A DNA stretch of 64,000 nt from a bacterium (lineage in GTDB: Bacteria > Arandabacterota > Arandabacteria > Arandabacterales > Arandabacteraceae). Positions 29,293 to 61,094 of this stretch are shown one piece after another. A model generated the notes under the pieces. The model was not told the DNA's origin, searched no databases, and saw only the letters and a program-made list of their open reading frames with translations. The translations under genes were made by a program, and so were the position numbers. Each line of letters opens with the position of its first letter. Position 1 is the stretch's first letter. Where the stretch lies: positions 110,452 through 174,451 of the forward strand of contig JAOZOU010000005.1 in the NCBI GenBank assembly GCA_029933125.1, written 5' to 3'.

Positions 29293-29653
29293 ACTCTGTT
29301 ACCGAGCTTGCAAACTTTTCACCCTCGGTTGCTGAGATCCATTCAAGTTTCAATCTCTCGGGTTCAATTCCAAGAAGGCTGATGAGTTTGCGTGCCTTCT
29401 CAACCTGATGTTCGGCTCTGCGATTACCAAAGGAGTAGTGACAGTCGCCTATATGGCAACCTGAGACGAATACTCCGTCAGCACCCTTTTCAAAAGCCTT
29501 AAGGATCAGACCGGGACTGATTCTCCCCGAACACATAACTCTTATGGTTCGAATATTGGGCGGATATTGCAGACGTGAGACACCTGCAAGGTCTGCGCCT
29601 GCGTAGCTACACCAGTTACAGGCAAATGCGACTATTCTGGGTTCAAATGCCAT
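29240..29653 (-). CDS. mvhD: MvhD-like iron-sulfur subunit
   Basis: A 137-residue MvhD/DUF-type protein that carries a [2Fe-2S] cluster and wires an electron donor to HdrA. It has FACNWCSYAGADLAGVSR, the IRVMCSGRISP and SGCHIGDCHY motifs that define the family. It is very similar in layout to the C-terminal domain of the Sec-HdrA at 25698, so the operon encodes both a free and a fused MvhD. It lies 5 nt from the tandem HdrA gene and is translated with it. Unlike BamF of benzoyl-CoA reductase, no Sec codon is seen here. Confidence 0.88.
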   Translation of the reverse strand: MAFEPRIVAFACNWCSYAGADLAGVSRLQYPPNIRTIRVMCSGRISPGLILKAFEKGADGVFVSGCHIGDCHYSFGNRRAEHQVEKARKLISLLGIEPERLKLEWISATEGEKFASSVTEFVERIRKLGRSPIKSES

Positions 29654-32775: not shown

Positions 32776-33360
32776 TCAGCCTTGGCTGCTTAATGCAGAC
32801 CCTTCTCTGATCTGTTCAGCGTAAGCTCGACCTTTGTCGAAGGCTTTCAAGTTGAGATCGATTGTTCCCTTAGGAACCGAATCCCGAACAGCCTTTCTAA
32901 GAGATTCCTCGCTTACAAAGTCTGCAAAAGCGGAGAAGAAACCAAGCATTACGATATTGGCTACGATCTTCCTTCCCAGCTCCTCAGCAAAGCGTGTTGC
33001 AGGGATCTTATAGATTCTCTTGGTCTTCTCATCGGGTGCTGTCACAACCAAGTCTTCGTCAATAAGCAGAATTCCATCAGGTTTGATATTGTGCCGATGT
33101 TTCTCATATCCCTCTTGAGACATCCCTACGAGAATGTCACACTCTATGACGTAGGGATAGAAGATTTTTTCCGGTGATACTATAACCTGAGTGCTCGAAG
33201 CACCACCTCGAGCCTCAGGACCGTAGGATTGGGTCATTGTGGCGTTGTTGCCGTCATAGACAGTTGCAGCTCTACCGAGTATATAACCCATAACGACCAT
33301 TCCCTGACCACCAAAACCCGTGAACCGCACTTCCTTTCTTGAAGAGGTAGTGCCTGCCAT
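32776..33360 (-). CDS. korC: 2-oxoacid:ferredoxin oxidoreductase gamma subunit
   Basis: A roughly 194-residue gamma subunit, typical of 2-oxoglutarate-type enzymes (KorC). VRFTGFGGQGMVVMGYILG is the family start and TQSYGPEARGG follows. A GGGAGG site lies 5 nt before the ATG at 33360; another ATG at 33363 overlaps the korB stop (ATGA) and the frame opens at 33384. It is the fourth gene of korDABC, transcribed right to left. Electron acceptor should be ferredoxin, via KorD. Confidence 0.87.
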   Translation of the reverse strand: MAGTTSSRKEVRFTGFGGQGMVVMGYILGRAATVYDGNNATMTQSYGPEARGGASSTQVIVSPEKIFYPYVIECDILVGMSQEGYEKHRHNIKPDGILLIDEDLVVTAPDEKTKRIYKIPATRFAEELGRKIVANIVMLGFFSAFADFVSEESLRKAVRDSVPKGTIDLNLKAFDKGRAYAEQIREGSALSSQG

Positions 33361-34223
33361 CATTTCCTCCCTATCTTTGGCCAAACATTTTCTACAAGAA
33401 AGTCTCTAAAGGTCGGTCGTTCAATATCGAGGAATTTTCCAACGATTATCTTACCAGTCATTCCTATATCAGCTTCCCTCGGATCAGCTCCATGCTTGAT
33501 TATGCTATTGTCGTGATAGTATTTCATGAGATCAAGACCTGTTCCCAGCCTGTTTCTTCTTGCAAAAGCCGTCGGGCAGGGGCAAATAATCTCAATGACT
33601 CGGAAACCCTTCTTGGGAAGCGCTTCCGCAATTGAATTCTTAAGTCTCCGCATGTGCAGTGCTGTCCATCTCGCAACATATGTAGCACCACTTGCAATCG
33701 AAAGGTAGGGGATGTTGAAGGGGTATTCGTAATTGCCGTAGGGAGCTGTGGTAGCTCTTGCTGAAACTGGCGTTGTCGGTCCTGCCTGGCCACCCGTCAT
33801 ACCGTAGTTGAAGTTGTTAACACAGATTACAAGTATGTCCATGTTTCTTCTCGCAGCATGGATGAAGTGATTGCCTCCGATTGCAACCAGATCACCGTCG
33901 CCTGAATAGACGACTACCCTTAGCTCGGGATTGGCTAAGGCAAGGCCAGTTGCAAAGGGAATTGCTCTGCCATGTGTCGTATGGAAGGAGTCAAGGTTGA
34001 TGTAACCTGCTACTCTTCCGCTACATCCAATCCCTGAAACAACTGCGATTTTCTTTTCGTCTATGCCTGATTCCCTCACTGCCATGATGAAGCAGGTTAG
34101 TGTTGTCCCAAGACCACAACCGGAGCACCAGATATGGGGCATCCTGTCCATGCGGAGCAAGTCGGACATGGGATGGGATTGCTTATCGACAACATCGGTC
34201 GTTGAGCTTGCCGACCTGTTCAT
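33360..34223 (-). CDS. korB: 2-oxoacid:ferredoxin oxidoreductase beta (TPP) subunit
   Basis: A 287-residue TPP-binding subunit. IWCSGCGLGTT provides cluster cysteines, VVYSGDGDLVAIGGNHFIHAARR is the Mg-TPP motif and NNFNYGMTGGQ is the conserved Asn block. The start overlaps the korA stop (ATGA) with a GGAGG site upstream. Substrate is not determinable; 2-oxoglutarate or branched-chain 2-oxoacids fit the pathway neighbours. Confidence 0.9.
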   Translation of the reverse strand: MNRSASSTTDVVDKQSHPMSDLLRMDRMPHIWCSGCGLGTTLTCFIMAVRESGIDEKKIAVVSGIGCSGRVAGYINLDSFHTTHGRAIPFATGLALANPELRVVVYSGDGDLVAIGGNHFIHAARRNMDILVICVNNFNYGMTGGQAGPTTPVSARATTAPYGNYEYPFNIPYLSIASGATYVARWTALHMRRLKNSIAEALPKKGFRVIEIICPCPTAFARRNRLGTGLDLMKYYHDNSIIKHGADPREADIGMTGKIIVGKFLDIERPTFRDFLVENVWPKIGRK

Positions 34224-35374
34224 TTTGCAGCCTCCTTAATTACTTGATAAATATCATCAGGATTGTGAACTTCACCACCTGCGTGGGGAACCAGATAAGT
34301 TCCTGCCTTTCCGCAAGCGCATCTTTCGACCTCGAGGGCAACCTGTCCCATGTTCATTTCCACCGTAACGAAGGCTTTCACTCTTTCCGCTAGTTCTCGT
34401 ATCTTCTCATCACAGAAAGGCCATACGGTTATGAGCCGTAGCATGCCTGCCTTGATGCCATCTTCTCTTGCAAGATCCATAGCACGGTGAGCAACACGAG
34501 AAGAGATTCCATAGGAGACGAGAACAACCTCGGCGTCGCTTAGATTAATCTCCTCGAGCTGGATGATTCTGTGTTTGTTCTTAAGTATCTTGTTGATGAG
34601 ATGACGTACCATCCAGTCCTGGGCTTCAGCATTTATTACCGGGTAACCACGTCGGTCATGCGTCAAGCCTGTGATATGAATGCGGTAGCCATCACCGGCC
34701 GTAACCATCTCCGGTATTTCATCTTCCCCAAAATCAAACGGAAGGTACTCACCGGGTTTTTTCTTCGTATAGCGCCTTGGAGTGATCTCAAGCTCATCCT
34801 TTGGTGGAATAACAACCTTCTCAGTCATATGCCCGACGCACTCATCACTCATAACAAGCACGGGAGTACGAAATTCTTCAGCCAGGTTAAAAGCTCTAAC
34901 CGTGAGATCGAAAATCTCCTGAGGTGAGTTGGGAGCAAGGGCTATTATTTCATAGTCACCATGCGAACCCCATCTGGCTTGCATCATGTCTGCCTGCCCA
35001 GGCAATGTTGGCAGTCCAGTTGATGGTCCACCTCGCTGGATATTCACTAGAACTGTCGGTGTTTCAAGGACTATCCCGAGGCCTAGGTTTTCCATCATAA
35101 GGCTGAAACCTGGTCCTGAGGTGCACGTCATCGACTTCCAACCACCCCAGGCAGCCCCCAGGATGGCATTCATCGAACCCAGCTCATCCTCCATCTGGAT
35201 GAACATGCCACCAACCTCAGGCAAGCGTTCTGACATCCTCTCGGCAATTTCGGTTGATGGGGTTATCGGATAGCCAGCAAAAAAAGAGCAACCTGCTGCT
35301 AGACCACCTTCAGCACAGGCATGGTCCCCACTCATGAAATGCTCACCCGTGAGCACTCTTCTGTCCTCAGCCAA
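34220..35374 (-). CDS. korA: 2-oxoacid:ferredoxin oxidoreductase alpha subunit
   Basis: A 384-residue pyrimidine-binding/transketolase-like alpha subunit. It shows AGYPITPSTEIAE, SGPGFSLMMENLG and RGGPSTGLPT, all typical of KorA. Start is a TTG with GGAGG 8 nt upstream; it lies 3 bp after korD. In contrast to the enzyme at 4535, gamma and alpha are separate genes here, so the two oxidoreductases belong to different subfamilies. Confidence 0.9.
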   Translation of the reverse strand: MAEDRRVLTGEHFMSGDHACAEGGLAAGCSFFAGYPITPSTEIAERMSERLPEVGGMFIQMEDELGSMNAILGAAWGGWKSMTCTSGPGFSLMMENLGLGIVLETPTVLVNIQRGGPSTGLPTLPGQADMMQARWGSHGDYEIIALAPNSPQEIFDLTVRAFNLAEEFRTPVLVMSDECVGHMTEKVVIPPKDELEITPRRYTKKKPGEYLPFDFGEDEIPEMVTAGDGYRIHITGLTHDRRGYPVINAEAQDWMVRHLINKILKNKHRIIQLEEINLSDAEVVLVSYGISSRVAHRAMDLAREDGIKAGMLRLITVWPFCDEKIRELAERVKAFVTVEMNMGQVALEVERCACGKAGTYLVPHAGGEVHNPDDIYQVIKEAAK

Positions 35375-39310: not shown

Positions 39311-40984
39311 GTGGGTGGACTCTTTGATAAGGAAAGGTTTGAAGAGCTCAGGAAGAAGAATGCTGAGTGGGAGAGCAAGTTTCGTGAGGCTTGCCTACCT
39401 TTTGAGGTTACCAACAGATCGGGTCGCGCAATCAAGCCCCTCTACACACCACTGGATGTAGCCGATCTCGACTATGAAAGGGATCTTGGATTCCCCGGCG
39501 AGTTTCCTTTCACACGCGGTATCTATACAACAATGCATCGGGGTAGATTGTGGACGATGCGCCAGTTTTCAGGCTATGGAACCGCCAGGGATTCTAATAG
39601 AAGGTACCATTTTCTCCTGGATCGTGGTCAGACAGGTCTTTCTGTTGCCTTCGACATGCCGACGATAATGGGCTATGACTCTGATCATCCACGTGCGCAT
39701 GGTGAGGTTGGCATGTGTGGAGTGGCTATCGATTCTCTCAAGGACATGGAGATCCTCTTCGAGGGGATACCCCTCGATAAGGTTTCGACATCGATGACAA
39801 TAAATGCACCAGCTGCTATCTTGCTTGCTTTCTACATATGTGTTGGTGAGAAACAGGGTGTTCCCAGTGAGATGCTGCGGGGAACCATCCAGAATGATAT
39901 CCTCAAGGAATACATTGCTCAGAAATCCTGGATCTTCCCTCCAGAGCCTTCCATGCGCATAATAACTGATATTCTTGCCTTTTGCGCAGATCATGTTCCC
40001 AAGTGGAATACCATCTCCATAAGCGGCTATCATATCCGTGAGGCTGGCTCAACTGCGGCTCAGGAGTTGGCTTTTACGCTTGCCGATGGCTTTGCATATG
40101 TTGAAGCTGGCATAGCTAGCGGCCTAGATGTTGACAGATTCGCACCTCGCCTTTCCTTCTTCTTTAATGCCCATCTGGATTTCTTCGAAGAGATTGCAAA
40201 GTATAGAGCCGCACGACGCATATGGGCGAGAAAGATGAAGACAAAGTACGGCGCCAAAAGGAAGGAATCGCTTTTGATGAGATTTCACACCCAGACAGCT
40301 GGTTGCACTCTAACGGCCCAGCAGCCAGAAAACAATATTGTCAGGACAGCATATGAGGCTATGGCTGCAGCCTTAGGTGGTACGCAATCGCTTCATACAA
40401 ACTCGATGGATGAAACACTTGCACTTCCAAGTGAGAAGGCAGTTCAGATTGCCCTGAGGACTCAACAGATACTTGCTTTTGAGACGGGCGTTACTCAGAC
40501 TATCGATCCTCTGGCTGGATCTTACTACGTAGAGTACCTTACAAACAGGCTTGAGGAAGAGGCCGAGGCTTACTTCAAGAAAATCGATGATTTAGGTGGT
40601 GTGATAAAGGCTATCGAGGCTGGCTTTTTCCAAAAGGAGATTTCAGATGCAGCCTACCGATATCAGAGGGAGATCGAAAAGAAGGATAAGATAGTTGTTG
40701 GGGTAAATGAATTTGTGATTGAAGATGAGAAACTCGAAATCGAAATTCTCAAGATTGATCCCCGTGTTGAAAAGGAGCAGACCAGGGCTCTTAAGAGACT
40801 AAGGGAGGAGCGCGATAACGATGCTGTTAGAAGAGCCCTTGAAGATCTCAAACGAGCTGCAGCTGGCAATGATAATCTTATGCCAAAGATCCTTACATGC
40901 TCAAGAACATACTGTACATTGGGTGAGATGATAGGAGTGCTAAAGGAGGTTTTCGGCGAGTACAAGGAACCCATAATCTACTGA
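39311..40984 (+). CDS. icmA: isobutyryl-CoA mutase large subunit (IcmA-like)
   Basis: A 557-residue B12-dependent acyl-CoA mutase. Overall it is methylmalonyl-CoA-mutase-like ([32 protein letters not shown] with the catalytic His241), but the two carboxylate-binding residues of methylmalonyl-CoA mutase are changed: Tyr89 is Phe86 (in LWTMRQFSG) and Arg207 is Gln204 (in EYIAQKSWI). Phe plus Gln is the known isobutyryl-CoA mutase pair; 2-hydroxyisobutyryl-CoA mutase has Ile instead of Phe. It would interconvert isobutyryl- and butyryl-CoA. GTG start. The mutase at 59424 keeps Tyr and Arg. Confidence 0.82.
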
Positions 40985-40998
40985 TTTTGGAGGCCTTT

Positions 40999-41403
40999 AT
41001 GGAGAGAAAGATACGTGTGCTTGTTGCCAAGCCTGGGCTTGACGGTCACGATCGTGGCGCTAAGGTTGTCGCGAGTGCCCTTCGGGACGCCGGCATGGAG
41101 GTTATCTATACCGGGCTCCACCAGACTCCCGAAGTGATAGTTGAAGCTGCCGTTCAGGAAGATGTTGATGTTATTGGGTTAAGTATTCTTTCAGGTGCTC
41201 ATATGGCTCTTTTCCCAAGGATTCTCGAGTTGCTGCGGGAGCGCGGTGCGGACGACAAGCTGGTTGTAGCTGGCGGAATCATACCTAAGGATGATATCGA
41301 AGAGTTGAAGAGGATGGGTATCAGTGAAATCTTTGGTCCTGGCACTCCAACGTCGCAGATAGTCGACTATATCAAGCGAGAGGTGGAAGCCCGAAGGGCT
41401 TGA
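40999..41403 (+). CDS. icmB: B12-binding small subunit of the acyl-CoA mutase
   Basis: A 134-residue cobalamin-binding domain protein. The lower-ligand motif DxHxxG is Asp15-Gly-His17-Asp-Arg-Gly20 in [19 protein letters not shown] and VVAGGIIP complete the B12 site. The ATG at 40999 is used, with GGAGG upstream, since a TTG at 40987 would swallow that site. It starts 14 bp after the large subunit, so both should form one enzyme. It may also have to serve the second mutase at 59424, which has no small subunit beside it. Confidence 0.88.
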
Positions 41404-44860: not shown

Positions 44861-45712
44861 ATGGACATTAAGAAGATCGGTGTTGTTGGGGCAGGAACCA
44901 TGGGGAATGGCATTGCTCATGTTTGTGCTATGAGTGGCTTTGAAGTTGTGATGGTTGACGTGAAAGATGAGTTCCTTGAGCGTGCCATAGCAACAATAGG
45001 TAAGAATCTGGATCGCATGATAAAGAAGGAGAAGATAACCGAAGCGGACAAGGAGGCCACGCTTAAGCGAATAAGGAAAACCACAAATCTTGAAGATGTT
45101 GCAGAGTGTGATGTTGTTGTCGAGGCTGTTGTTGAGGATGTTGCAACAAAGATCGATGTATTCAGGAAGCTCGATGCGACTTGTAAGAAAGAGGCCATTC
45201 TTGCAAGTAACACCTCTTCAATCTCCATAACAGAGCTTGCAGCAGCAACATCCAGACCAGATATGGTCATAGGTATGCACTTCATGAATCCGGTTCCTGT
45301 TATGAAACTTGTTGAGATTGTCAAGGGGCTTCAAACATCGGATAAGACCTATGAAATAACTCACAGTCTTGCTGAGAAATTGGGCAAGACTCCTGTTCTT
45401 GTTAATGACTACCCAGGCTTTGTGTCAAACAGGGTGCTCATGCCCATGATAAATGAAGCCTGCTGGGCACTCATGCAGGGGGTTGCCACCAAGGAGGCAA
45501 TTGATACCGTCATGAAGCTCGGTATGGCACATCCTATGGGACCATTTGAGCTTGCCGATCTCATTGGACTCGATGTCTGTCTTGCCATCATGGAAGTGCT
45601 TTATGAAGGTTTCAGCGATTCCAAGTACCGCCCATGTCCACTTCTAAGGAATATGGTGAAGGCGGGTTATCTTGGGAGAAAGACCAAACGGGGCTTTTAT
45701 ACTTACGATTGA
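44861..45712 (+). CDS. 3-hydroxybutyryl-CoA dehydrogenase
   Basis: A 283-residue NAD-dependent dehydrogenase with Rossmann motif [31 protein letters not shown] and [16 protein letters not shown] are the signature; the catalytic His is in MHFMNP. It oxidises 3-hydroxybutyryl-CoA to acetoacetyl-CoA, feeding the thiolase just upstream. The end overlaps by 10 bp the end of the convergent HdrD-like gene. No crotonase gene is in this operon; the LiuC-like protein is a different subgroup, so a crotonase must be elsewhere. Confidence 0.92.
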
Positions 45713-46929
45713 TCTTCAGGTAGGATGATTGGGCCGGGATCCTCCAGACATGAATACGCGAGGATCTCGGCCACATCCATAACCGGTATTTCACTATCGA
45801 GTGACTTGGTTGTCTCCTCAATCATCTGGAGACAGTATGGGCAGGCGACAGCAATCACATCAGCTCCCGTCTCGGTGAGCTGCTTTGCGCGCACGCTTGC
45901 AATTCTTTCATCCCTGTCCCATTCCATCCAGAGACCACCGCTTCCAGCTCCGCAGCAAACACTCAGTGAACGGCTGAAATCCTCAACTTCCACGAGCTCA
46001 ATACCTGGTATGCTCCTCAGGATACTCCGTGGCTCGTCATAGATGCCATTCTGGCGGCCCAGGACACAGGGATCATGATAGACGACCCTGTACTCAAAGG
46101 GCCTCTTGGGCTTGAGTTTGCCCTCTTCAATAAAGTCAAGGAGATATTGACTTGAATGGAGAACTTCAAACTTGCTACCCAGGTCAGGATATTCGTTCTT
46201 GAAGGAATCATAGCAATGGGGACAGGTCACGAAGATTCTCTCAACACCAGCTTTGAGAAATGCCTCGATATTTGCACTTGCCAGTTCCGTGAAAACACCT
46301 TCGGCACCTATTCGACGGACTATCTCACAACAACAATTTTCAGCAGTCCCGAGGGTTCCAAAGGGAACTTCAGTTGCAAGGAGAAGCCGAGCTGTTGCCT
46401 GTGCCACACGTCTGGCTCTTAAATCAAAGGCAGGGATACACCCAGCGAAGTAAAGGAATTCCATAGAGGGATCAAAATGCTTTATGCCAATTTCCTTAGC
46501 CCATTCAGGACGCTTATCCTTCGGCTCACCAAAGGGATTGCTCGTCTCGCGAATCCTTCTAACAGTTGCCTTGAGAACCTCAGGATATGAGCCAAAGTCC
46601 ACAAGAAGGCGTCTTGCAGCTCTAAATATCTTAGGTATATCAACACCGTGAGGACACTGATCGACACAGGCCTCGCATCCAACGCATCTGTAAACCTTAT
46701 CGATCTCGCGTGCGAGCTCTTCCTTGTCTTCCGATGCTGCCAACGTGCCAAGGGCGGCTTCTAAAGCTACTCGAAAAACTGGGAAGTCGTAAGTCCCAAC
46801 CTGGAACCAGGGACACGCACTACCGCATTTGCCACATTGGTAACATTTAAAGATGTCCTCGGCTCCCATCTCTATGAGGACATCCCTTATCTCAGGATTG
46901 ATCTCATCTATTAGGTTCTTGCGTTCCAA
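45703..46929 (-). CDS. HdrD-like iron-sulfur oxidoreductase
   Basis: A 408-residue soluble protein: two 4Fe-4S motifs (Cys29/32/35/39 in [12 protein letters not shown]; Cys82/85/88/92 in [12 protein letters not shown]), then two CCG-type domains. The second CCG ([10 protein letters not shown]) is normal, the first reads Cys199-Cys-Cys201-Glu ([10 protein letters not shown]), with Cys in place of Gly. TTG start with a GAGGTGATCT site, overlapping the NuoG-HdrA gene by 26 nt. It is the last gene of the etf-hdr operon and is the likely terminal electron acceptor module of the complex. No membrane segment. Its reductant partner is unknown. Confidence 0.82.
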
Positions 46930-48679
46930 AGATCACCTCGACCATCTTGATTACCTGCTGGTCAAAGAGATTTCGCTGCTGGGTAGCTCCCGTCGGGCAG
47001 GCGACGACGCATGCCCCACAACCCTGACAAAGTATTTCATTTACGATTACAATGTCTTTTTCCTCATCATAGAGCCTTGCCTCATAGGGGCAGGTTTCGA
47101 TACAGACCCTGCAGCTTATGCAAAGGTCATCATTGACCGTTGCCACAAGTGGCTCTGATGTAAGCTCACCACTGGAAAACATCTCAAGGGTTTTGGCTGC
47201 AGCTGCTGAGGCTTGAGCAATGGATTCAGGAATGTCCTTTGGACCATGAGCACAACCTGCAAGGTAGAAGCCCCTGACAAGTGACTCAACAGGTCGCAGC
47301 TTTGGATGCACTTCGGAAAGGAAGCCATATTGGTTCGTTGGGATTCTCAAGTCTTTTGTTAACTTGAGAGTTTCCTTTGTCGGAACAATTGCCATTGAGA
47401 CAACTACCATGTCACAATGCACTCGAACCTGCTTGCCTGTCAATGTGTTGACGGCCCAGATCATTAAGCCATCGCCATCCTTGATTATCCTTGAAGGTTT
47501 ACCTCTAATATAGAGAACATTTGCCTCCTGTTTAGCTCTCGTATAGAACTCCTCATAGTCTTTGCTGGATGTTCGCACATCTATGTTGAAGATTATGGCT
47601 TCGCCATCTGGAACATGTTCCTTGTAGAGCAAAGCATGCTTAGCCATGTACATACAGCAGATTTTTGAGCAATAGGCCATGTGATGCTCTGGATCACGAG
47701 AACCAACGCAAGATATGAAAGCAACTCGCTTGGGGATCTTGCCATCCGACGGCCTTCTTATCTCGCCCTGGGTTGGGCCCGAGGCTGAGAGCAAGCGTTC
47801 GAATTGAAGACCATCAATAACGTCCGCATACTTGCCACCACCATATTCAGGTATCTCTGAAATGGGATAAAGTTCATAGCCTGTAGCAATAATAACGGCA
47901 CCAACGTTTTCTTCGATTACCTCATCCTTTTGGTCATAATCAATCGCCCCAGGCTGACAGACCTTCTTGCAAACCTGGCAAGTCCCTGCCTCAAAGTACA
48001 TGCAATTTGAGCGGTCAATTACCGGCTTGTTTGGCACAGCCTGAGGGAATGGAAGATAGATGCATGGTCGGCTTGCTAGTCCTTCGTCAAACTCCGAGGC
48101 AATAGGCTCAGGAGGTTCACCTGCGATGTCTTCGATCCTTATGCAATTGGTTGGACAGACACTCACGCATGCGCCACACTTTGTACAGACATCACTTCTT
48201 ATGGAATAGGGGGTTGTCACTTCGCGTTCTATTCCTCTTCTGGCAAATGATATCGCTCCCACACCCATAATCGTGTTGCACATCTCAACACAAAGGCCGC
48301 AAAGTATGCATTCGATCTCACGACGCTTGGCGAATCTTGGCTTCTCTATCCCAAGGTCCTGTGCAAGTGCCTGAACGCGTTTGGAGTTGGGGGCTTGAGC
48401 AAGGATGAGTTCAACGATAGTCTTTCGGCGCTTTAGAACGCGCTCACTTCTCGTTAGAACCTCAATTCCATCCTCGACCTTGTATCCACAGGATGGTACA
48501 AGCTTTGATGTTGTCCCTTTCCTTACCTCTACAAGGCAGACTCTGCAGACTTGATAGGGTTCGATAGCTGGATGATAGCATAATGTTGGAATTTCTATCC
48601 CTAGCTGGTTCGCAGCTTGAAGTATAGTCGTCCCTTCATCAACCTCAATTGTCTGTCCATCAATCGTGAGTTTGACCAT
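46904..48679 (-). CDS. NuoG-like N-terminus fused to the C-terminal half of HdrA
   Basis: A 591-residue fusion. Residues 1-190 are NuoG/HydA-like: [2Fe-2S] Cys34/45/48/64, then 4Fe-4S Cys124/127/130/134 and Cys165/168/171/175; the NuoG His-ligated cluster segment is absent. From about 193 (SEFDEGLASRPCIYLPFPQAV) it aligns with HdrA from the middle of its internal ferredoxin to the end, with two C-terminal 4Fe-4S motifs (CISCRVCIETCP, CQGCGACVVACP). The first half of HdrA, with the FAD GxGxxG and CSxC, is missing here and is encoded at 50540. The two halves join without overlap, so they should assemble into one HdrA. Confidence 0.85.
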   Translation of the reverse strand: MVKLTIDGQTIEVDEGTTILQAANQLGIEIPTLCYHPAIEPYQVCRVCLVEVRKGTTSKLVPSCGYKVEDGIEVLTRSERVLKRRKTIVELILAQAPNSKRVQALAQDLGIEKPRFAKRREIECILCGLCVEMCNTIMGVGAISFARRGIEREVTTPYSIRSDVCTKCGACVSVCPTNCIRIEDIAGEPPEPIASEFDEGLASRPCIYLPFPQAVPNKPVIDRSNCMYFEAGTCQVCKKVCQPGAIDYDQKDEVIEENVGAVIIATGYELYPISEIPEYGGGKYADVIDGLQFERLLSASGPTQGEIRRPSDGKIPKRVAFISCVGSRDPEHHMAYCSKICCMYMAKHALLYKEHVPDGEAIIFNIDVRTSSKDYEEFYTRAKQEANVLYIRGKPSRIIKDGDGLMIWAVNTLTGKQVRVHCDMVVVSMAIVPTKETLKLTKDLRIPTNQYGFLSEVHPKLRPVESLVRGFYLAGCAHGPKDIPESIAQASAAAAKTLEMFSSGELTSEPLVATVNDDLCISCRVCIETCPYEARLYDEEKDIVIVNEILCQGCGACVVACPTGATQQRNLFDQQVIKMVEVIFGTQEPNR

Positions 48680-48689
48680 CTTACCTCAG

Positions 48690-50543
48690 CTACTCTACCA
48701 CTACAGCCTCGAACTTACATACCTGTTTGCAGATTCCGCACTTTGTGCATTTTTCAGGGATTATCATGTGGGGCTTTCGCGCTTCGCCTTCGATTGCACC
48801 AGCAGGGCAGGCCTTGAGGCATGCTGTGCAACCTGTGCATTTTTCAGCATCAATGCGATATGTTATAAGCGACTTGCAAACACCAGCAGGGCATCGCTGT
48901 TCTCGAACATGGGCCAGGTATTCATCCTTGAAGTACCTGAGAGTAGTAAGGACAGGGTTCGGAGCGGTCTTGCCGAGCTGACAGAGGGATCCATCAGCAA
49001 CTGCCTCAGCAAGCTCCTCGAGTGTCTCAAGATCCACCTCACTTGCCTTACCATCACAAATACGCTGCAGGATCTCAAGCATATAGGCATTGCCTTCACG
49101 GCATGGTGTGCATTTACCGCACGATTCTCCAACGGTAAACTCCAGAAAGTAACGGGCAACATCTACCATGCACGTTTCTTCATCCATGACAACACAGCCG
49201 CCTGAGCCCATCATCGAACCCAGCTTGGTGAGCTCCTCATAGTCAACAGGGGTGTCAATGTAATCTAGAGGGATGCATCCACCCGAGGGACCACCAGTCT
49301 GAACAGCTTTAAGCCTCTTGCCGCCCCTTATTCCACCGCCTATTTCAAAGACCAACTCTCTCAAAGTTGTTCCCATCGGGATTTCAACGAGTCCCGTGTT
49401 ATTGACCTTCCCAACAAGGGAGAAGATCATTGTCCCCTTGCTACTCTCAGTACCTATGCTGCCAAACCATCGAGATCCCCTGACAATGATGTAAGGAACA
49501 CAGGCCCATGTCTTGACATTGTTGATCACGGTGGGCTTATTCCACAATCCACTTCGGGTTGCGTGGGTTTGTTTGGGTCGGGGCTCACCAGCTCGACCTT
49601 CGATCGACGCAATGAGGGCGCTACTTTCGCCGCAGACGAAAGCCCCAGCTCCTTTCTTAATGGAAATGTCAAATGAGAAGTCGGTTCCAAGGATATTCCT
49701 GCCGAGCAAACCACAATCGCGAGCATCCTCAATAGCACGTGAAAGATGTTCACAGGCGAGAGGATATTCGGCTCTCACATAGATAAAGCCTTGCTCCGCA
49801 CCAATAGCATAAGCACCGATAATCATTCCCTCGATAATGAGGTGAGGATTGCCCTCACAGAGACTTCGATCTTGAAATGCACCCGGGTCGCCTTCGTCAG
49901 CATTGCATATCACATACTTGGGGGTCACCGGCTCGAAGAAAGCACTTCTCCACTTTCTGCCAGTTGGAAATCCAGCTCCCCCACGTCCTCTCAAGCCCGA
50001 CTTCTCAATCTCAACAATTACATCCTCCGGGGAAAGCGAGCTTAAGGCCTTAGCAAGAGCCTCATAGCCGCCAACTCTGATGTAATCGTCAATGCTTGTT
50101 GGATCGATGTATCCATTGTGCTCCATCAGGATGCGTTGCTGCTTTGCGTAGAAGGCAACTTCGTCTTCACGCTGTACCGCTGTGCCTGTTTGGGGATCTC
50201 TATAAAGAAGTCTCTCTATAGCTTTGTCTTCGAGGATTGTCTTTCCGATGATCTCATCCACATCCTTTGAAGTTACGCCCTGATAGAAAATGTTCTGAGG
50301 GCGGATAACAACCAGAGGACCTCTTTCACAGAAGCCATGACAACCTGTTGGCTTTGCGATCACCTTGGATTTAAGGTCATGTGATACGATTGCCTCATTG
50401 AATCTGGCAAGTACATCGCGTGCACCTGAGGCTGTGCAACCTGTTCCACAGCAAATATTGACAATCGTCTTTGAGGGATCTTCTGACATTGCCAGGTTTT
50501 TTCTGTATTTCCGCAAGTCCTCTATGTTCTTTATGCGTCTCAT
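48690..50543 (-). CDS. NuoF/HydB-type NADH-oxidising flavoprotein subunit
   Basis: A 617-residue subunit: N-terminal thioredoxin-like [2Fe-2S] domain (CCGTGCTASG, GCHGFCERGPLV), NuoF domain with the NADH/FMN motifs GRGGAGFPTGRKW and NADEGDPGAFQDR and cluster ligands in GESCGKCTPCREG, then a C-terminal 2[4Fe-4S] domain (CTGCTACLKACP, CTKCGICKQVCK). This is the layout of bifurcating hydrogenase HydB and HndC-like proteins. Starts in the stop of the HdrA-NuoE gene (ATGA). It oxidises NADH or reduces NAD+ for the complex. Confidence 0.92.
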   Translation of the reverse strand: MRRIKNIEDLRKYRKNLAMSEDPSKTIVNICCGTGCTASGARDVLARFNEAIVSHDLKSKVIAKPTGCHGFCERGPLVVIRPQNIFYQGVTSKDVDEIIGKTILEDKAIERLLYRDPQTGTAVQREDEVAFYAKQQRILMEHNGYIDPTSIDDYIRVGGYEALAKALSSLSPEDVIVEIEKSGLRGRGGAGFPTGRKWRSAFFEPVTPKYVICNADEGDPGAFQDRSLCEGNPHLIIEGMIIGAYAIGAEQGFIYVRAEYPLACEHLSRAIEDARDCGLLGRNILGTDFSFDISIKKGAGAFVCGESSALIASIEGRAGEPRPKQTHATRSGLWNKPTVINNVKTWACVPYIIVRGSRWFGSIGTESSKGTMIFSLVGKVNNTGLVEIPMGTTLRELVFEIGGGIRGGKRLKAVQTGGPSGGCIPLDYIDTPVDYEELTKLGSMMGSGGCVVMDEETCMVDVARYFLEFTVGESCGKCTPCREGNAYMLEILQRICDGKASEVDLETLEELAEAVADGSLCQLGKTAPNPVLTTLRYFKDEYLAHVREQRCPAGVCKSLITYRIDAEKCTGCTACLKACPAGAIEGEARKPHMIIPEKCTKCGICKQVCKFEAVVVE

Positions 50544-51823
50544 GCCTTGCTCGTGCGGTAGGTTTCGATGAGGCTTGCAACCGAGGTTGAATCGAGCCTA
50601 CCATGATAATCGCTATCAACAACAACGAGGGGTCCGAGGGCACATGCTCCCAAGCAGTTAACCGTTTCAAGCGTGAAAAGGCCATCAGGCGTTGTCTCGC
50701 CAGGGGAGATTCCCAAATCCTTCTTTAGCTCCTCGAGAATGCGTGGAGCTCCCCTTACGAAGCAGGCTGTGCCCATGCATACCTTTATAAGATGCTTGCC
50801 TCTTGGCTCTAAGCTGAATTGGGTATAGAATGAGGCAATCCGATAGACATAGGAAAGGGGTAGATCGAGTCTTTCGGCAACATAGCTTAGGGCATCCTTT
50901 GGGAGCCAGTTGAAACGGTCATTTATATCTTGAAGGATTGCTATGATATTGTCTTTCCTACACTCGTTGGCCTCAATGATTTCATCAACAACTTTGCGAA
51001 GACCATCTTCCATGTGATCTTTGACTGAAGGTTTTGGTCTTATCTTTGGCCTGTATCTTACAGGGCAGTAAGTCCAGCAATCACCACAACCTGTGCACTT
51101 CTCAACATCAACAAAGCGTGGCTTTTTTCTGATCTTAACCATGAAGTTGCCAGCATAACCTGTGATTTCTTCAATTTCCGAGAAGGTGTGAAGGCGAATT
51201 TTCTCATGCTGGCTTGCCTCCACCATCTTGGGTGTGAGGATACATTGTGAACAATCGAGGGTAGGGAAGGTCTCGGAGAGCTGAGCCATGTGCCCTCCTA
51301 TTGAGGGTTGCTTCTCTACTAGGACAACCTCGTAGCCAGCATTGGCAATATCAAGTGCAGCCTGGATTCCAGCTATGCCTCCACCTATCACAAGTGCCCG
51401 TTGTGTCACAGGTATTCTTGACGGCTTGATCGTCTCATTGAGATTGGTCTTCTCGATAATCGTTGTGATTATCGTAATGGCTTTTGACGTGGCAGACGCG
51501 ACATCGGTATGCACCCAGGAGCACTGCTCCCTTATATTTGCTATCTCAAGGAGAAAACGATTAAGTCCCACCGATTCAGCAACCTTCCTGAAGGTCTCTT
51601 CATGGAGCGACGGGGAGCAGCAGGCAACAACAACTGCCTCGAGATTTTTCTCCTTGATGCGTGATCTTATCAGGCGCTGGCCGGGCTCTGAGCACATGTA
51701 TTTGTAGTCTTCACAGTGCTCCACACCAGGATATGAAGTGATGGCTTTGACAACTGCGGGAATGCTGACTGTTCCACTGATGTTTCTGCCGCAGTGGCAG
51801 ACGAAAACCCCTGTTCGCTTCAT
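50540..51823 (-). CDS. HdrA N-terminal half fused to NuoE-like thioredoxin-fold subunit
   Basis: A 427-residue fusion. Residues 1-140 are the HdrA cysteine-rich extension, 147-152 GGGIAG binds FAD, CSQC is at 191-194 and internal ferredoxin cysteines are 243/246/249/253; the HdrA similarity stops at about 260, exactly where the NuoG fusion picks it up. About 275-427 is NuoE-like with [2Fe-2S] Cys349/354/390/394 (KVCMGTACFVRG, VNCLGACALGP). The gene follows etfA with no gap and overlaps the NuoF gene. Two halves of HdrA on opposite sides of one NADH subunit imply an interlocked complex. Confidence 0.87.
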   Translation of the reverse strand: MKRTGVFVCHCGRNISGTVSIPAVVKAITSYPGVEHCEDYKYMCSEPGQRLIRSRIKEKNLEAVVVACCSPSLHEETFRKVAESVGLNRFLLEIANIREQCSWVHTDVASATSKAITIITTIIEKTNLNETIKPSRIPVTQRALVIGGGIAGIQAALDIANAGYEVVLVEKQPSIGGHMAQLSETFPTLDCSQCILTPKMVEASQHEKIRLHTFSEIEEITGYAGNFMVKIRKKPRFVDVEKCTGCGDCWTYCPVRYRPKIRPKPSVKDHMEDGLRKVVDEIIEANECRKDNIIAILQDINDRFNWLPKDALSYVAERLDLPLSYVYRIASFYTQFSLEPRGKHLIKVCMGTACFVRGAPRILEELKKDLGISPGETTPDGLFTLETVNCLGACALGPLVVVDSDYHGRLDSTSVASLIETYRTSKA

Positions 51824-52798
51824 CTAGCCTTTTATCTCTGATATTTTCTCTTTGAGAACCGGTAGCACCTTGAAAAGATCATCTACTATCCCATAGTCGG
51901 CTTCATTGAAGATTGGGGCATTGGGATCCTTGTTGATAGCGATGATTGTCTCGGCTCCTTTCATTCCTGCAACATGCTGAAAAGCCCCAGATACACCAAC
52001 GGCAATGTAGAGCTTGGGCTTTATTGTTTTTCCAGACGAGCCTATCTGCCTGTCCTTGGGGAGCCACTCGGCATCAACAATGGGTCTTGTGCAGCCTACG
52101 ACACCTCCAATCGCCTTGGCAAAATCCTCAACCAATGCGATGTTTTCCTTTTCCTTAATACCCCTGCCAACCCCGACAACGACATCGCTCTTCGTAATAT
52201 CGATTTCACCTACAACTGGTTCGATGTATTCAATGAATCTGCGATAATCTGGTTCGCCTGCTAGGGCAAGATCAAGATTGACAATCTCAGCATTCAGCTG
52301 AGCCTGGTCATCAGTGAAGGTACCTGACCTGAGAGTAAGCAGGTAGGATGGATGCTTGCGCAATTTCACCCTTGCGTTGAGCTTGCCATCGTACATCTGG
52401 CGGGTAACCTTCAGTATCCCATCGTGGAAGTCGACTGCCAGGCAGTCGGTCATCAAGGGAATGCTGAGAGAGGTTGCGAGGGAAGGTGCGAGATCCATGC
52501 CGAATGCTGAATGTCCCATGAGAACAATTGTAGGATTCTCGCTACGAATGATTTGGCTCAATGCTTCCTGATAGCATTCTGCATTGAAATTCTTAAAAAC
52601 AGGGGAGTTGACAAGGATAAGACGGTGGGCATGGCTCTTGAGTTGTTCCGCAAATTCATCTGGATTCTCAGCAAGAATGACACCTGTGAGGCTTTCACCA
52701 AGCTGCTGAGCAAGCAATCTGCCGCAGGCAAGGGTTTCAAAAGTAATGTCTCTCAAGGTGCCTTGGCGATGTTCAACGAGAGCGAGAATTCCAGCCAT
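51824..52798 (-). CDS. etfA: electron transfer flavoprotein alpha subunit
   Basis: A 324-residue ETF alpha subunit. The C-terminal FAD domain carries VGVSGAFQHVAGM and NKDPNAPIFNEADYGIVDDL, family signatures. With EtfB it accepts electrons from acyl-CoA dehydrogenases. Gap to etfB 9 bp; gap to the HdrA-NuoE gene zero, so ETF and the NADH/Hdr module are expressed together. Whether it is a simple or bifurcating ETF cannot be read with certainty. Confidence 0.92.
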   Translation of the reverse strand: MAGILALVEHRQGTLRDITFETLACGRLLAQQLGESLTGVILAENPDEFAEQLKSHAHRLILVNSPVFKNFNAECYQEALSQIIRSENPTIVLMGHSAFGMDLAPSLATSLSIPLMTDCLAVDFHDGILKVTRQMYDGKLNARVKLRKHPSYLLTLRSGTFTDDQAQLNAEIVNLDLALAGEPDYRRFIEYIEPVVGEIDITKSDVVVGVGRGIKEKENIALVEDFAKAIGGVVGCTRPIVDAEWLPKDRQIGSSGKTIKPKLYIAVGVSGAFQHVAGMKGAETIIAINKDPNAPIFNEADYGIVDDLFKVLPVLKEKISEIKG

Positions 52799-52807
52799 CT
52801 CAGCCTC

Positions 52808-53581
52808 CTATATCAGACCTTTCTCTTTAATTATTGTTGCAACCCTTGTTGAAACCTCTTCAGCATCTCCCTCGATTATCTCAGCCCTCTTTGTTACAGG
52901 TGGAGTGAAGAGTTCTTCGATTTCGGCATTCAGGGTGAGGGAAGTGTCAGAAATCTCATCCTTGCCAATTGTCTCTATTTGTTTTGATGCTGCTCTTCGA
53001 ATGGCAATCAAGGAAGCATAACGAGGAACGTTGATGCCAGTTTGAACAGTAATAACGGCAGGTAAAGCCATTTCGAGATGTTCAAGTAAACCACCTTCGA
53101 GTTCACGATACACATGTGCCTTACCTTCTTGAGCTTCTACTTTGGTGACAAGCGTCGCATGAGGTATGCCAAGGAGTTCAGCCAGGATTACGCCAACCTG
53201 GGAATAAGCATCGTCAGTTGCCATACACCCTGAAAAAATAACATCGTAGGGCTTGCTCTTGATGGCAAGAGCAAGGAGCTGGGCTGTCTTATAAGCATCG
53301 ATTTCACCCAATTCCTCCGCTTTGATCCTGACAGCATTGTCAGCTCCTTTTGCAAGTGCAATTCTCAGGGTTTCCTCAGCGTCTGGTCCACCAAGCGATA
53401 TAGCAGTGACATTGCCACCAAATTTTTCCTTGAAGATGACAGCCTCTTCAAGTGCATATATGTCCGCTTCGTTCATGTCGAAGGATAATCTCTGCCTTTC
53501 TATATCCTTGCCGGAGGAATCAACTCGCACATCTGCATCTGCTGTCTGTGGTACTCGCTTGATGCAAACTATGATGTTCAA
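52808..53581 (-). CDS. etfB: electron transfer flavoprotein beta subunit
   Basis: A 257-residue ETF beta subunit: NIIVCIKRVPQTADADVRVD at the N-terminus, VTAISLGGPDAEETLRIALAKGAD and MATDDAYSQVG are characteristic. TTG start with GGGGTGAG upstream. First gene of the etf-hdr-nuo operon (8 kb), preceded by a 321-bp gap and the acyl-CoA dehydrogenase at 53903, its likely electron donor. Confidence 0.92.
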   Translation of the reverse strand: MNIIVCIKRVPQTADADVRVDSSGKDIERQRLSFDMNEADIYALEEAVIFKEKFGGNVTAISLGGPDAEETLRIALAKGADNAVRIKAEELGEIDAYKTAQLLALAIKSKPYDVIFSGCMATDDAYSQVGVILAELLGIPHATLVTKVEAQEGKAHVYRELEGGLLEHLEMALPAVITVQTGINVPRYASLIAIRRAASKQIETIGKDEISDTSLTLNAEIEELFTPPVTKRAEIIEGDAEEVSTRVATIIKEKGLI

Positions 53582-53902: not shown

Positions 53903-55045
53903 CTATCCCTTGAGCAGGCTGGCAGCAATGACAAGCCGCTGAACCTCAGAAGTCCCCTCATAGATTTCCGTCAGTTTTGAGTCTCGGAAATATCTTTCAA
54001 CATCGTATTCCTTCATGTAGCCATAACCACCATGGATCTGAACAGCATTAGTAGCAGCCCTTACCACGGCTTCAGATGCCAAAAGCTTTGCCTGAGCAGC
54101 CTCCTTGCTAAAGCGGATGCCTTTGTCCTTAAGATATGCAGCGCGATAGGTGAGATACCTGGCTGCCTCAATCTCAGTTGCCATATTAGCTATCATCCAC
54201 TGGATTGCCTGGAATTCGCAAATGGGTCTCCCAAACTGCTTTCGCACCTTTGAATATTCTATTGAGGCTTCAAGGCATGCTTGCCCTATGCCTACCGCCT
54301 GAGCTGCAATTCCAATACGTCCCCCGTCAAGGGTCGCAAGAGCGATCCTATAGCCCTTCCCTTCCTCGCCAAGTAGATTCTCCTTAGGAACCTTGCAATC
54401 CTCGAAGATAAGCTCGGAAGTATCAGCTGCCCGCATTCCCATCTTGTTTTCCTTTTTGCCGACCCTGAATCCTTGCATTCCCTTCTCGATTATGAATGCA
54501 CTTATCCCTTTGGCCTTAGCCTCGGGGTTGGTCGAAGCAAAGAGAATTATTATGTCAGCCTTTCCTCCATTTGTTACGAATATCTTCGTGCCATTGATGA
54601 CGTAGTGGTCACCATCGAGAATTGCCCTTGTCTGGACATTCCCGGCATCCGAGCCCGCCTCAGGTTCTGTTAGGGAGAAGGCACCAAGTTTTTTCCCTTG
54701 AGCCAGATCGGGCAAGTACTTCCGCTTCTGTTCCTCCGTTCCGTAGTCGAGAATTGGTTGGCAGGCAAGTGAATTGTTGACAGACATGCTCACGCCAGTC
54801 GAGGCATCGCCACGCGAGATCTCTTCAACAGCAATAGCATAGCTCACGCAGTCCATACCAGAGCCACCATACTCCTCAGGCACCATCATTCCCATGAAAC
54901 CTAGTTCGCCAAGCTTAGAGATGATCTCTGACGGAAATTTCGCTTCCTGGTCTAGCTTGCTCGCTATGGGTTTGATCTCCTTCTCAGCGAATTCGCGGGC
55001 AGCCTTTCTTATCATCTGTTGCTGACTGTCGAGACCAAAATCCAT
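53903..55045 (-). CDS. acyl-CoA dehydrogenase, short-chain type
   Basis: A 380-residue dehydrogenase with SLTEPEAGSDAG, FVTNGGKAD, RKQFGRPICEFQAIQ, IHGGYGYMKEYDVERY and the catalytic Glu in YEGTSEVQRLVIA. ATG at 55045 follows a GGGGG site; GTG at 55048 is also possible. It lies directly ahead of etfBA, so it is the probable feeder of the Etf/Hdr system. Specificity could be isovaleryl-, butyryl- or 2-methylbutyryl-CoA; sequence alone does not decide. Confidence 0.88.
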   Translation of the reverse strand: MDFGLDSQQQMIRKAAREFAEKEIKPIASKLDQEAKFPSEIISKLGELGFMGMMVPEEYGGSGMDCVSYAIAVEEISRGDASTGVSMSVNNSLACQPILDYGTEEQKRKYLPDLAQGKKLGAFSLTEPEAGSDAGNVQTRAILDGDHYVINGTKIFVTNGGKADIIILFASTNPEAKAKGISAFIIEKGMQGFRVGKKENKMGMRAADTSELIFEDCKVPKENLLGEEGKGYRIALATLDGGRIGIAAQAVGIGQACLEASIEYSKVRKQFGRPICEFQAIQWMIANMATEIEAARYLTYRAAYLKDKGIRFSKEAAQAKLLASEAVVRAATNAVQIHGGYGYMKEYDVERYFRDSKLTEIYEGTSEVQRLVIAASLLKG

Positions 55046-55194
55046 CACAATCCCCCTTTCAACCTTCGGTACTAGGCTTGGCAGATACTTGTCAAAAAAC
55101 TCCGTGCCATGCTACCACTGAGGCTTCGTCTAGTCAAGCGTGAATGGTGAGGATTCATTTGAGAGAGCATAGCAAGAGGGGAGAGGATTGGTGC

Positions 55195-59023: not shown

Positions 59024-59427
59024 TCAACTTGCTCACTGAGTTCAATAAGAAAGCCACAAGTGGATTTTGGAGACAGAAAAGCAACCTTCTTGCCGTGGGC
59101 ACCCCTACGAGGCTCAGAATCGATGAGCTCGATGCCTTTAGCCTTGAGTGCGGCAAGCCACCCTTCTATGTCCTCAACATCAAGACAGATGTGGTGAATG
59201 CCATTTCCTCTCTTGCTGAGAAAGACTGAGATGGGGCTCGCATCGGAAGTCGGCGTTACGAGTTCGATCTGTGTCGTCCCACATTCAAAGAAGACTACTT
59301 CGACATTGCTTGCCTCAATTCTTTCACGGTGAGATTCCTTGAGTCCAAATGTCTTCTTTAGTGTTGCGATGCATTCACCCAGGTTGGTGATTGCAATTCC
59401 AATGTGCTCAACTCCTTTGATTTTCAT
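59020..59427 (-). CDS. mce: methylmalonyl-CoA epimerase
   Basis: A 135-residue vicinal-oxygen-chelate enzyme. [12 protein letters not shown] carries the metal ligand His8, [14 protein letters not shown] a second, and LIELSEQ the Glu. It interconverts R and S methylmalonyl-CoA between propionyl-CoA carboxylase and mutase. Both flanking genes overlap it (ATGA on each side), in line with its pathway position. Confidence 0.92.
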
Positions 59428-61094
59428 GTCCTTACCTCACTGAAAGTTCCATAGATCTCTCTAAGGGTTGCACATATCTCTCCTAGTGTCACCCTGTTTC
59501 TGGCAGCACTTATGATTGGCTCAATGATGTTTCCACCCGCAAGAGCAGCTTCTCTTATTTCCTTGAGACTCTTCTCAACCATGCGGTGCGACCTCTGGGT
59601 TTTGACCATTGCCAAACGTTGCTTTTGCTCCTTCTCGACAGCCTCATCGATCTTGAGAATCCTCGGTTGTTCGTACTCTTCGGCAAATCTGTTAACACCA
59701 ACAACCGTTGTCTCACCACTTTCCACTTGTTTTTGGTAGGCATAAGCACTTTTCTCAATTTCATCCTTGATGAAGCCGTTCTCAATCGCTGTGATCACCC
59801 CACCCATCTTTTCAATCTTCTCTAAGTACTCTTTGGCTTTCTCCTCAATTTGATCAGTCAAGTATTCAATAAGATAGGATCCACCCACAGGATCAACCGA
59901 ATCCGTCACTCCACTTTCATAAGCGATTATTTGCTGGGTTCTCAAAGCAACGCGTACGGCTTCCTCCGTTGGTAAGGAAAGGGCTTCATCAAAGCTATTC
60001 GTATGCAGGGATTGGGTTCCTCCAAGTACGGCAGCCAGTGCCTGGAGGGTTACCCTAATTATGTTATTAAGCGGCTGCTGAGCTGTGAGGGTAGAGCCCC
60101 CAGTTTGGGTGTGGAAGCGCATCATGCATGAACGCTCATTCTTTGCTCCAAATCTTTTGCGGACAGTTTCAGCCCACATCCTTCGAGCTGCTCTGAATTT
60201 GGCTATTTCCTCAAAGAAATTGTTGTGTGCATTGAAGAAGAAAGATATGCGAGGAGCAAATTCGTCGACATCTAGACCTGCTTCGATAGCATGTTCAACG
60301 TAGGTTGTGGCATTAGCCAGTGTAAAGGCAACTTCCTGAACAGCTGTTGCACCCGCTTCGCGGATGTGGTAGCCACTAACCGAGATTGTATTCCATCTTG
60401 GCATCTCTTTACTGCAGAAGGAGAAAATGTCGGTTGTGATCTTAAGTGAAGCCTTTGGTGGAAAGATGTATGTTCCCCGTGCTACATACTCCTTAAGAAC
60501 ATCGTTTTGAACTGTACCCGAGAGATTTCTACGGCTTATTCCTCTGTTCTCAGCTACACCGATAAACATGGCAAGGATCACACAGGCAGTCGAGTTTATA
60601 GTCATTGAGGTGCTTACCCTATCCAGCGGGATGCCTTCAAACAGCCTCTCCATATCGTCTATGGTATCAATGGCAACACCTGCTCTACCCACCTCACCAA
60701 GACATATGGGGTGATCTGAGTCGTAGCCCATCTGGGTTGGCAGATCAAAGGCGACGGAGAGACCTGTCTGGCCACGATCAAGGAGATACTTGAATCTCCG
60801 GTTCGTTGCCTCGCATGTTCCATAGCCTGCGTATTGCCTGAATGTCCAAAGTCTTCCGCGGTACATGTTAGGATAGACACCACGGGTGAAGGGGTATTCA
60901 CCAGGAAAGCCAAGCTTCCTCAGATAGTCACTCTGAGAGAGGCGAGGAAAGTGAACTGTTGAAATCTCTATTCCTGACGAAGTTTTGCGCTGGGGCTTGC
61001 TTTCGGGGTGCTTGCTAAGATGAGGCTCAAGGATTTGCTTTTCCCAGCGTTCAATCTGGCTTGCAAGCTCCTCGGCTTGCTTCTTATCATCCAT
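59424..61094 (-). CDS. mcmA: methylmalonyl-CoA mutase large subunit
   Basis: A 556-residue TIM-barrel mutase. The two residues that bind the substrate carboxylate are kept: Tyr88 (in LWTFRQYAG, Tyr89 of the Propionibacterium enzyme) and Arg206 (in EYVARGTYI, Arg207). [15 protein letters not shown] and [12 protein letters not shown] are family blocks. It thus differs in specificity from the mutase at 39311. It lacks its own B12-binding domain and none is in the operon, so the small subunit at 40999, or another elsewhere, must supply it. It is flanked by epimerase and carboxylase genes. Confidence 0.9.

Follow-up and report, generated by a model that had tools for sequence, protein, structure and literature searches.

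An ETF-linked HdrA split between two Nuo fusions by an inserted nuoEFG cassette

Can an HdrA that is encoded in two pieces, each fused to a subunit of an NADH module, still work as one enzyme, and what would it then connect? The question is raised by an operon in the window, by which we mean the whole 64-kb stretch of DNA analysed here, where three genes are nested within another gene; both outer products would be required to rebuild one enzyme. Annotation is likely to miss such HdrAs or to label them as fragments.

An operon with a nuoEFG cassette inside hdrA

All six open reading frames described in the first-pass annotation are where it put them, on the minus strand and in the order EtfB, EtfA, fusion 1, NuoF, fusion 2 and a CCG protein. 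The genes etfB (52808..53581, 257 aa; PF01012) and etfA (51824..52798, 324 aa; PF00766 and PF01012) are followed by fusion 1 (50540-51823), in which residues 1-256 of HdrA are joined to NuoE; by NuoF/BfuB (48690..50543, 617 aa); by fusion 2 (46904-48679), which joins the N-terminal part of NuoG to HdrA from residue 260 to its end; and by a 408-aa CCG iron-sulphur protein (45703..46929), first labelled HdrD-like and here called EtfD-like. Upstream of etfB, at a distance of 321 bp and in the same orientation, lies an acyl-CoA dehydrogenase gene (53903..55048), which is a neighbour in split and intact relatives. From etfB onwards the junctions are a 9-bp gap, a 0-bp gap, a 4-bp overlap, a 10-bp gap and a 26-bp overlap. 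Gaps of 11 bp or less had thus been read correctly; of the three overlaps counted, only two lie in the operon, beside one abutting pair, and the third is a 10-bp stop-to-stop overlap of the EtfD-like gene with a convergent 3-hydroxyacyl-CoA dehydrogenase gene. The architecture is that of an acd-etfB-etfA-hdrA-etfD operon with an in-frame nuoEFG (bfuCBA) cassette in hdrA.

The two HdrA pieces are complementary. NCBIfam matches fusion 1 to positions 1-258 of the HdrA2 model (360 bits) and then, from residue 268, to NuoE/HoxE, whereas in fusion 2 residues 1-182 match NuoG/HydA/HoxU and residues 185-585 match HdrA2 positions 249-642 (435 bits). Against PDB 5odc_A the N-half covers 5-259 and the C-half, outside the common ferredoxin motif, about 258-650; NCBIfam, Pfam and PDB searches are concordant on the split point. 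One HdrA is therefore common to the two Nuo fusions and neither half repeats the other's part, as had been claimed from the sequence. The break falls inside the internal ferredoxin domain, also as claimed, in the loop between its two cluster motifs. The N-half (51056..51823, minus strand, like every feature given in this section) comprises the N-terminal domain and the FAD Rossmann motif and closes with ferredoxin motif I, CTGCGDCWTYCP. The C-half (fusion 2 residues 196-585; 46925..48094) begins with SEFDEGL and contains motif II, the remaining FAD domain and the C-terminal ferredoxin domain. Between them lies an insert of 2,961 bp, by its coordinates (48095..51055), made up of NuoE, NuoF, the NuoG N-part and linkers; in the alignment, intact relatives have 3-4 residues at this site.

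Residues kept across two chains

We asked which HdrA residues the two chains keep between them. Glu356 and Lys409, which hold and stabilise the bifurcating flavin of HdrA (PMC12054007), align with Glu294 and Lys347 of fusion 2, and Cys197, a ligand common to two HdrA protomers (PMC9012536), aligns with Cys194 of fusion 1. These three residues are invariant wherever an aligned split protein covers them, and likewise in the aligned intact HdrAs. The split proteins also keep the FAD and cluster-ligand residues that they cover, except that in lineages with a double (delta-N) HdrA the N-terminal domain is missing. All HdrA domains are present, but over two chains rather than on a single polypeptide, and judged by its conserved residues the split HdrA looks functional.

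The halves could in principle act separately, as independent HdrA-N/NuoE and NuoG/HdrA-C carriers or paired with the cell's intact HdrAs, which are indeed encoded elsewhere in the genome. We consider this very unlikely: one chain has the FAD Rossmann motif, the other the flavin-coupling Glu and Lys, and both are kept. Where an operon or a tree allowed an intact HdrA to be placed, it fell in a different operon; every residue checked is kept in the split halves. Single-chain AlphaFold models of the two fusions, with mean pLDDT of 71 and 67 and pTM of 0.36 and 0.39, are poor also far from the break; with Foldseek they confirm homology at low confidence and say nothing on docking of the halves.

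The split recurs in other genomes

The window's phylum is represented by eight genomes in our set, and a wider survey took in 386 genomes, whose candidate loci were then inspected. The ETF-linked split occurs in the window's genome and in three further genomes of its family (G001, G003 and G004). In another family member, G002 (locus L130), the operon has an uninterrupted hdrA up to the contig end, and G006, from the same taxonomic order, has an intact hdrA and an EtfD-like gene on a contig that starts inside hdrA. The arrangement acd-etfB-etfA-hdrA with intact hdrA, followed by an EtfD-like gene, is also found at L132, in WOR-3 (L013) and in Cloacimonadota (L071).

Other splits lack ETF. An ETF-free order hdrCB-[HdrA-N+NuoE]-NuoF-[NuoG+HdrA-C] occurs in G008, at a second locus of G004 and in G290, the last two with mvhD and flx-like genes, and double-HdrA forms without the N-terminal domain occur at a third locus of G004 and in G002, G153 and G109. 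HdrA-N and NuoE are separate genes, with NuoG-HdrA-C fused, in G062, G128, G136, G170, G303 and G008. In the 386-genome survey, splits were present in at least nine family codes (f1, f4, f58, f105, f124, f132, f149, f158 and f228), that is, eight besides the window's own, and outside the window's family they sit mostly in HdrABC-type operons. At split loci L148 (5706-8798), L151 (4714-7908), L152 (11868-14906) and L156 (11381-14626), NuoF is fused to a GltD-like domain (1,013-1,082 aa).

That the N-half can stand unfused to NuoE in one set of lineages is a point for independently acting halves, and it shows that a split HdrA does not need the HdrA-NuoE fusion, against the idea that HdrA forms only when both Nuo fusions assemble. 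The order of N-half, NuoEF and NuoG-HdrA-C is nevertheless the same wherever seen, which argues against separate roles.

Recurrence also bears on whether the split is an assembly error, a chimera or a decaying gene without function. The assemblies are metagenomic and several contigs end near the locus, but order and junctions are identical in G001, G003 and G004 and, more distantly, recur in G008 and G290, and a chimera would not leave both reading frames intact in several genomes. The three split-locus proteins show saturated pS (0.75-0.85) with low pN (0.10-0.20) among relatives, a mark of strong purifying selection. Recurrence in independent genomes together with this pattern shows that the split is neither chance nor misassembly; misassembly or frameshift is ruled out on these comparative data, and a functionless split of any kind is extremely improbable.

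Candidate partners of the split HdrA

To which electron carriers might this HdrA connect? The NADH side is formed by NuoE/BfuC (fusion 1 residues 276-424; 50552..50998, minus strand; PF01257, 2.8e-50; HydC/HoxE-like), by NuoF, with a thioredoxin-like [2Fe-2S] N-domain, an FMN/NADH domain and a C-terminal double ferredoxin, and by NuoG-N/BfuA (fusion 2 residues 1-182; 48134..48679, minus strand), with a [2Fe-2S] and two CxxCxxCxxxC motifs. The best PDB match of NuoF is the bifurcating HydB 8a6t (1e-235), over nearly its full length and with all cluster motifs aligned, which places it in the Bfu family (PMC9304861). Alignment to HydB structures finds the thioredoxin-like [2Fe-2S] site, the B1 motif, the double ferredoxin and the RCPAGVC cysteine pair all present, with BfuC present as well. 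The NuoG N-part aligns without net gap to its nearest match, BfuA of the bifurcating tungsten aldehyde oxidoreductase WOR-Bfu (9mqx). Motif inspection saw no His-Cys cluster motif in it and, with the 9mqx_A match, gives A1, A2 and A4 only, without A3 and A5, in cluster names of our own assignment. The module is of the bifurcating Bfu type and is consistent with Type 2 (HydABC homologues), with which it shares the BfuBC core motifs and a BfuA with A1 and two cubane motifs; it differs in carrying one half of HdrA fused to BfuC and the other fused to BfuA. The first-pass annotation had recognised an NADH-using module, rightly, but missed its Bfu-type identity, through which the system would have two candidate bifurcation centres.

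On the other side, EtfB is closest in the PDB to the ETF of trimethylamine dehydrogenase (TMADH; 1o94, 6.7e-43), with bifurcating EtfBs at about 1e-29, and by this nearest match the ETF may be non-bifurcating. Its hits to the NCBIfam AcrA/AcrB models score far below the cut-off. The 408-aa CCG protein, which had been taken for an HdrD acceptor, best matches M. smegmatis EtfD (9ojn, 5.1e-55), itself an acceptor of ETF electrons, with HdrC at 2e-8 and HdrB at 3e-5. The ligands of the EtfD clusters, among them the histidine of CPHC and the cysteines of the CCG motifs, are conserved in it. Unlike EtfD/EMO-type ETF acceptors, it is soluble, without the membrane b-haem domain (the match begins after the membrane part of EtfD), and an additional CC is present in its first CCG motif, as it is in Hdr. 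Mycobacterial EtfD receives electrons from ETF, and its family acts in fatty-acid oxidation (PMC13083937). Given this closest relative, the protein probably links ETF to HdrA, as electron entry rather than final acceptor, and the case for an HdrD-type disulphide reductase is weaker than that for an EtfD relation.

The surrounding genes favour the proposed tie to acyl-CoA metabolism. They include the acyl-CoA dehydrogenase, a thiolase, the 3-hydroxyacyl-CoA dehydrogenase, MeaB, a biotin carboxylase/carboxyltransferase pair, two methylmalonyl-CoA mutases and a 2-oxoacid:ferredoxin oxidoreductase adjoining another Hdr cluster; the simplest reading of this context is oxidation of branched-chain or propionyl-type acyl-CoAs. 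The split HdrA is probably tied to the breakdown of fats or amino acids. The two mutase loci are separate (39311-41403 and 59424-61094).

A proposed electron path and its direction

On balance, we favour a soluble system that couples acyl-CoA dehydrogenation to NAD(H) and ferredoxin, in which the halves are reassembled, HdrA serves as the coupling flavoprotein and net oxidation yields NADH. The halves would reassemble around one FAD. In a 2[4Fe-4S] ferredoxin fold the fourth cysteine of each cluster comes from the other motif, and by this geometry both internal [4Fe-4S] clusters of HdrA should be ligated by both chains. The NADH module would be placed at the HdrA port that serves ferredoxin in methanogen HdrA. 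A GltD insert has been proposed to turn this ferredoxin port into an NAD(P)H port (PMC12054007), and by analogy the same logic fits the nuoEFG insert. Electrons would pass from acyl-CoA through the acyl-CoA dehydrogenase, ETF and the EtfD-like protein to the HdrA FAD, be combined there with low-potential electrons of ferredoxin and exit via NuoG, NuoE and NuoF as NADH, roughly acyl-CoA + Fd(red) + 2 NAD+ <-> enoyl-CoA + Fd(ox) + 2 NADH. This would be the reverse of Bcd-EtfAB, with HdrA in place of ETF as the coupling flavoprotein. As the operon has no MvhD gene, the site for free ferredoxin is assumed and would be the C-terminal ferredoxin of HdrA or the ferredoxin of NuoF; if the Bfu module exchanged ferredoxin too, the stoichiometry would change. 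One complex linking ETF, NADH and ferredoxin, as first suggested, fits this reading, with co-assembly predicted and an EtfD-like protein in the place given to HdrD.

We prefer the oxidative direction; the system should be reversible. By textbook standard potentials, butyryl-CoA oxidation balances at an unfavourable +40 kJ/mol or so and needs a low enoyl-/acyl-CoA ratio. If the same complex ran the opposite way, NADH would enter via NuoEFG and HdrA would bifurcate its electrons, one branch going to ferredoxin and the other through the EtfD-like protein and ETF to an enoyl-CoA. This direction would be thermodynamically easier; it would be an HdrA-based analogue of Bcd-EtfAB, the precedent for such a reaction (PMC9304861), and could supply reduced ferredoxin to, for example, Rnf. 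The genome encodes RnfC (above cut-off), along with a [NiFe]-hydrogenase-family and a [FeFe]-hydrogenase-family protein, and the best NCBIfam model of the acyl-CoA dehydrogenase is the acryloyl-CoA reductase AcrC, of a reductive family, below cut-off (539 of 640 bits). Set against this, the neighbouring genes look catabolic and the EtfD family belongs to fatty-acid oxidation, neither of which is decisive, and we hold the reductive direction to be rather unlikely.

A quite improbable alternative is a plain wire, in which a chain of clusters joins ETF and NAD(H) (or ferredoxin) while the flavins of HdrA and NuoF couple no two potentials. Coupling is inferred here from homology alone, and bifurcation by the single FMN of Bfu is itself still a proposal (PMC9304861); yet the HdrA Glu/Lys pair, Cys197 and the Bfu-specific NuoF cluster motifs are kept, and plain transfer from ETF to NAD+ would be uphill.

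If net oxidation coupled to NADH and ferredoxin is correct, anaerobes would have a soluble acyl-CoA/NADH/ferredoxin route that needs neither a bifurcating ETF nor an ETF acceptor in the membrane, and this would bear on how energy is coupled when syntrophs oxidise fatty acids and amino acids.

Relation to known HdrA complexes

In the class II benzoyl-CoA reductase BamBCDEFGHI (Bam-Bfu), BamD is HdrD-like, BamF is MvhD-like and HdrA is a single intact subunit. The window's operon shares with Bam-Bfu an HdrA module combined with a BfuABC (NuoGFE-like) module (PMC9304861), whereas the substrate subunits of Bam are the tungsten BamBC and an ETF is absent there. In the window the Bfu genes interrupt HdrA, whose partner is of ACD-ETF-EtfD-like type, and no BamBC subunits were found in the operon or the neighbouring genes scanned. 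HdrABC-MvhAGD has the same HdrA domains and bifurcation residues, but the operon is without HdrB, HdrC and Mvh subunit genes and its internal ferredoxin is interrupted.

Type III HdrA (HdrL, HdrA9-11; GltD- or NfnB-inserted) likewise has an NAD(P)H module between the halves of the internal ferredoxin domain (PMC12054007, PMC9012536). It differs in having one inserted domain, about 35 residues further on, in a single polypeptide, against three genes (NuoE-NuoF-NuoG) and a broken chain in the window. Type III HdrA is described in methane-metabolising archaea, and HdrL, a similar HdrA-glutamate synthase fusion, in one sulphate reducer (PMC2702500). A GltD/NfnB-like NAD(P)H domain about 35 residues further on in the same HdrA loop of an ETF operon occurs in WOR-3 (L016, L017 and L019), Neomarinimicrobiota (L018) and G143, and L015 has the same GltD-like insertion with acd and etf genes on a contig that ends early. 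Bacterial ETF-operon HdrAs with such an inserted domain are seen at L016, L017, L018, L019 and L155.

In the literature found, which covers few subscription papers, there is no account of HdrA being split by a three-gene insert or of the ETF-linked form of this split. The first-pass annotation knew no described enzyme with such a split: it is undescribed in that literature, but with nine family codes it is not unique, and its closeness to Bam-Bfu and type III HdrA argues against calling the complex novel as a whole. Pairing of HdrA with BfuABC and inserts in the HdrA loop are already known; the three-gene split and the ETF link are apparently new.

Possible exchange of the cassette between HdrA backbones

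How did splits come to be so widespread? In a tree of 54 HdrA rows, split HdrAs are scattered. The ETF splits group with the intact HdrA of G002 (100/97), in a clade almost wholly of ETF-operon HdrAs; its deepest row, L014, comes from a locus without ETF genes. The G008 split HdrA is sister to an intact HdrABC-MvhD HdrA, L160 (97/97), L123b and L146 lie elsewhere, and six splits with an unfused N-half intermix with type III and intact HdrA. A single HdrA clade of NuoE-fused, full-length splits was rejected (AU p 5.5e-64), as was one of the ETF splits with L127 (p 2e-6), although the groups were picked after the similarity pattern had been seen and these and the following p-values are optimistic. 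The inserted nuoEFG parts are scattered among free-standing nuoEFG operons; a single clade holding every inserted cassette was rejected (p 8e-7), and one of the ETF cassettes with L127 was not (p 0.052).

Wholly independent insertions are also not clear-cut, since the NuoG-HdrA linker has 13 residues in all fused forms except L147 (15) and L127 groups with the ETF splits near the junction. In the 141 columns nearest the junction L127 joins the ETF splits (100/95) and L127 with L160 is rejected (p 0.007), whereas in the other 503 columns L127 joins L160 (99/98) and the grouping with ETF splits is rejected (p 2e-39). Our reading is that, at least in the case of L127, recombination exchanged the cassette and the ferredoxin that flanks it between HdrA backbones; alternatively, the ferredoxin may have adapted to its partner convergently. 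The uninterrupted HdrA of G002 (L130, 6232-7860) goes with the ETF splits away from the junction and with the intact L136 near it; possibly its insert was removed by recombination.

We tentatively extend this to a wider model, possible though somewhat doubtful, in which the internal ferredoxin loop of HdrA is an exchangeable socket, nuoEFG and the flanking ferredoxin recombine between backbones, the HdrA FAD and the Bfu FMN-FeS centres work in series within a single interlocked complex, and a [4Fe-4S] cluster requires two chains to come together. That NAD(P)H modules, the Bfu cassette as well as GltD, recur in a single loop of HdrA would then amount to a testable statement on how HdrA complexes gain new electron ports.

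Further Hdr loci in the genome

A second Hdr cluster lies at 25698-29635 of the window. It encodes an HdrA-MvhD whose frame contains a TGA at 27522-27524, probably read as selenocysteine, as well as a further CCG protein (28102-29292) and MvhD (29267-29635), and beside it are a double-HdrA open reading frame (29659-32703) and the 2-oxoacid:ferredoxin oxidoreductase (32776-35374). On another contig of the same genome (G000:C176), nuoEFG adjoins several unsplit HdrA-like genes, one with a TGA, and an HdrD-like gene (L134, 4202-18542); an [FeFe]-hydrogenase-family match starts at C176:197570, at the end of the L134 stretch.
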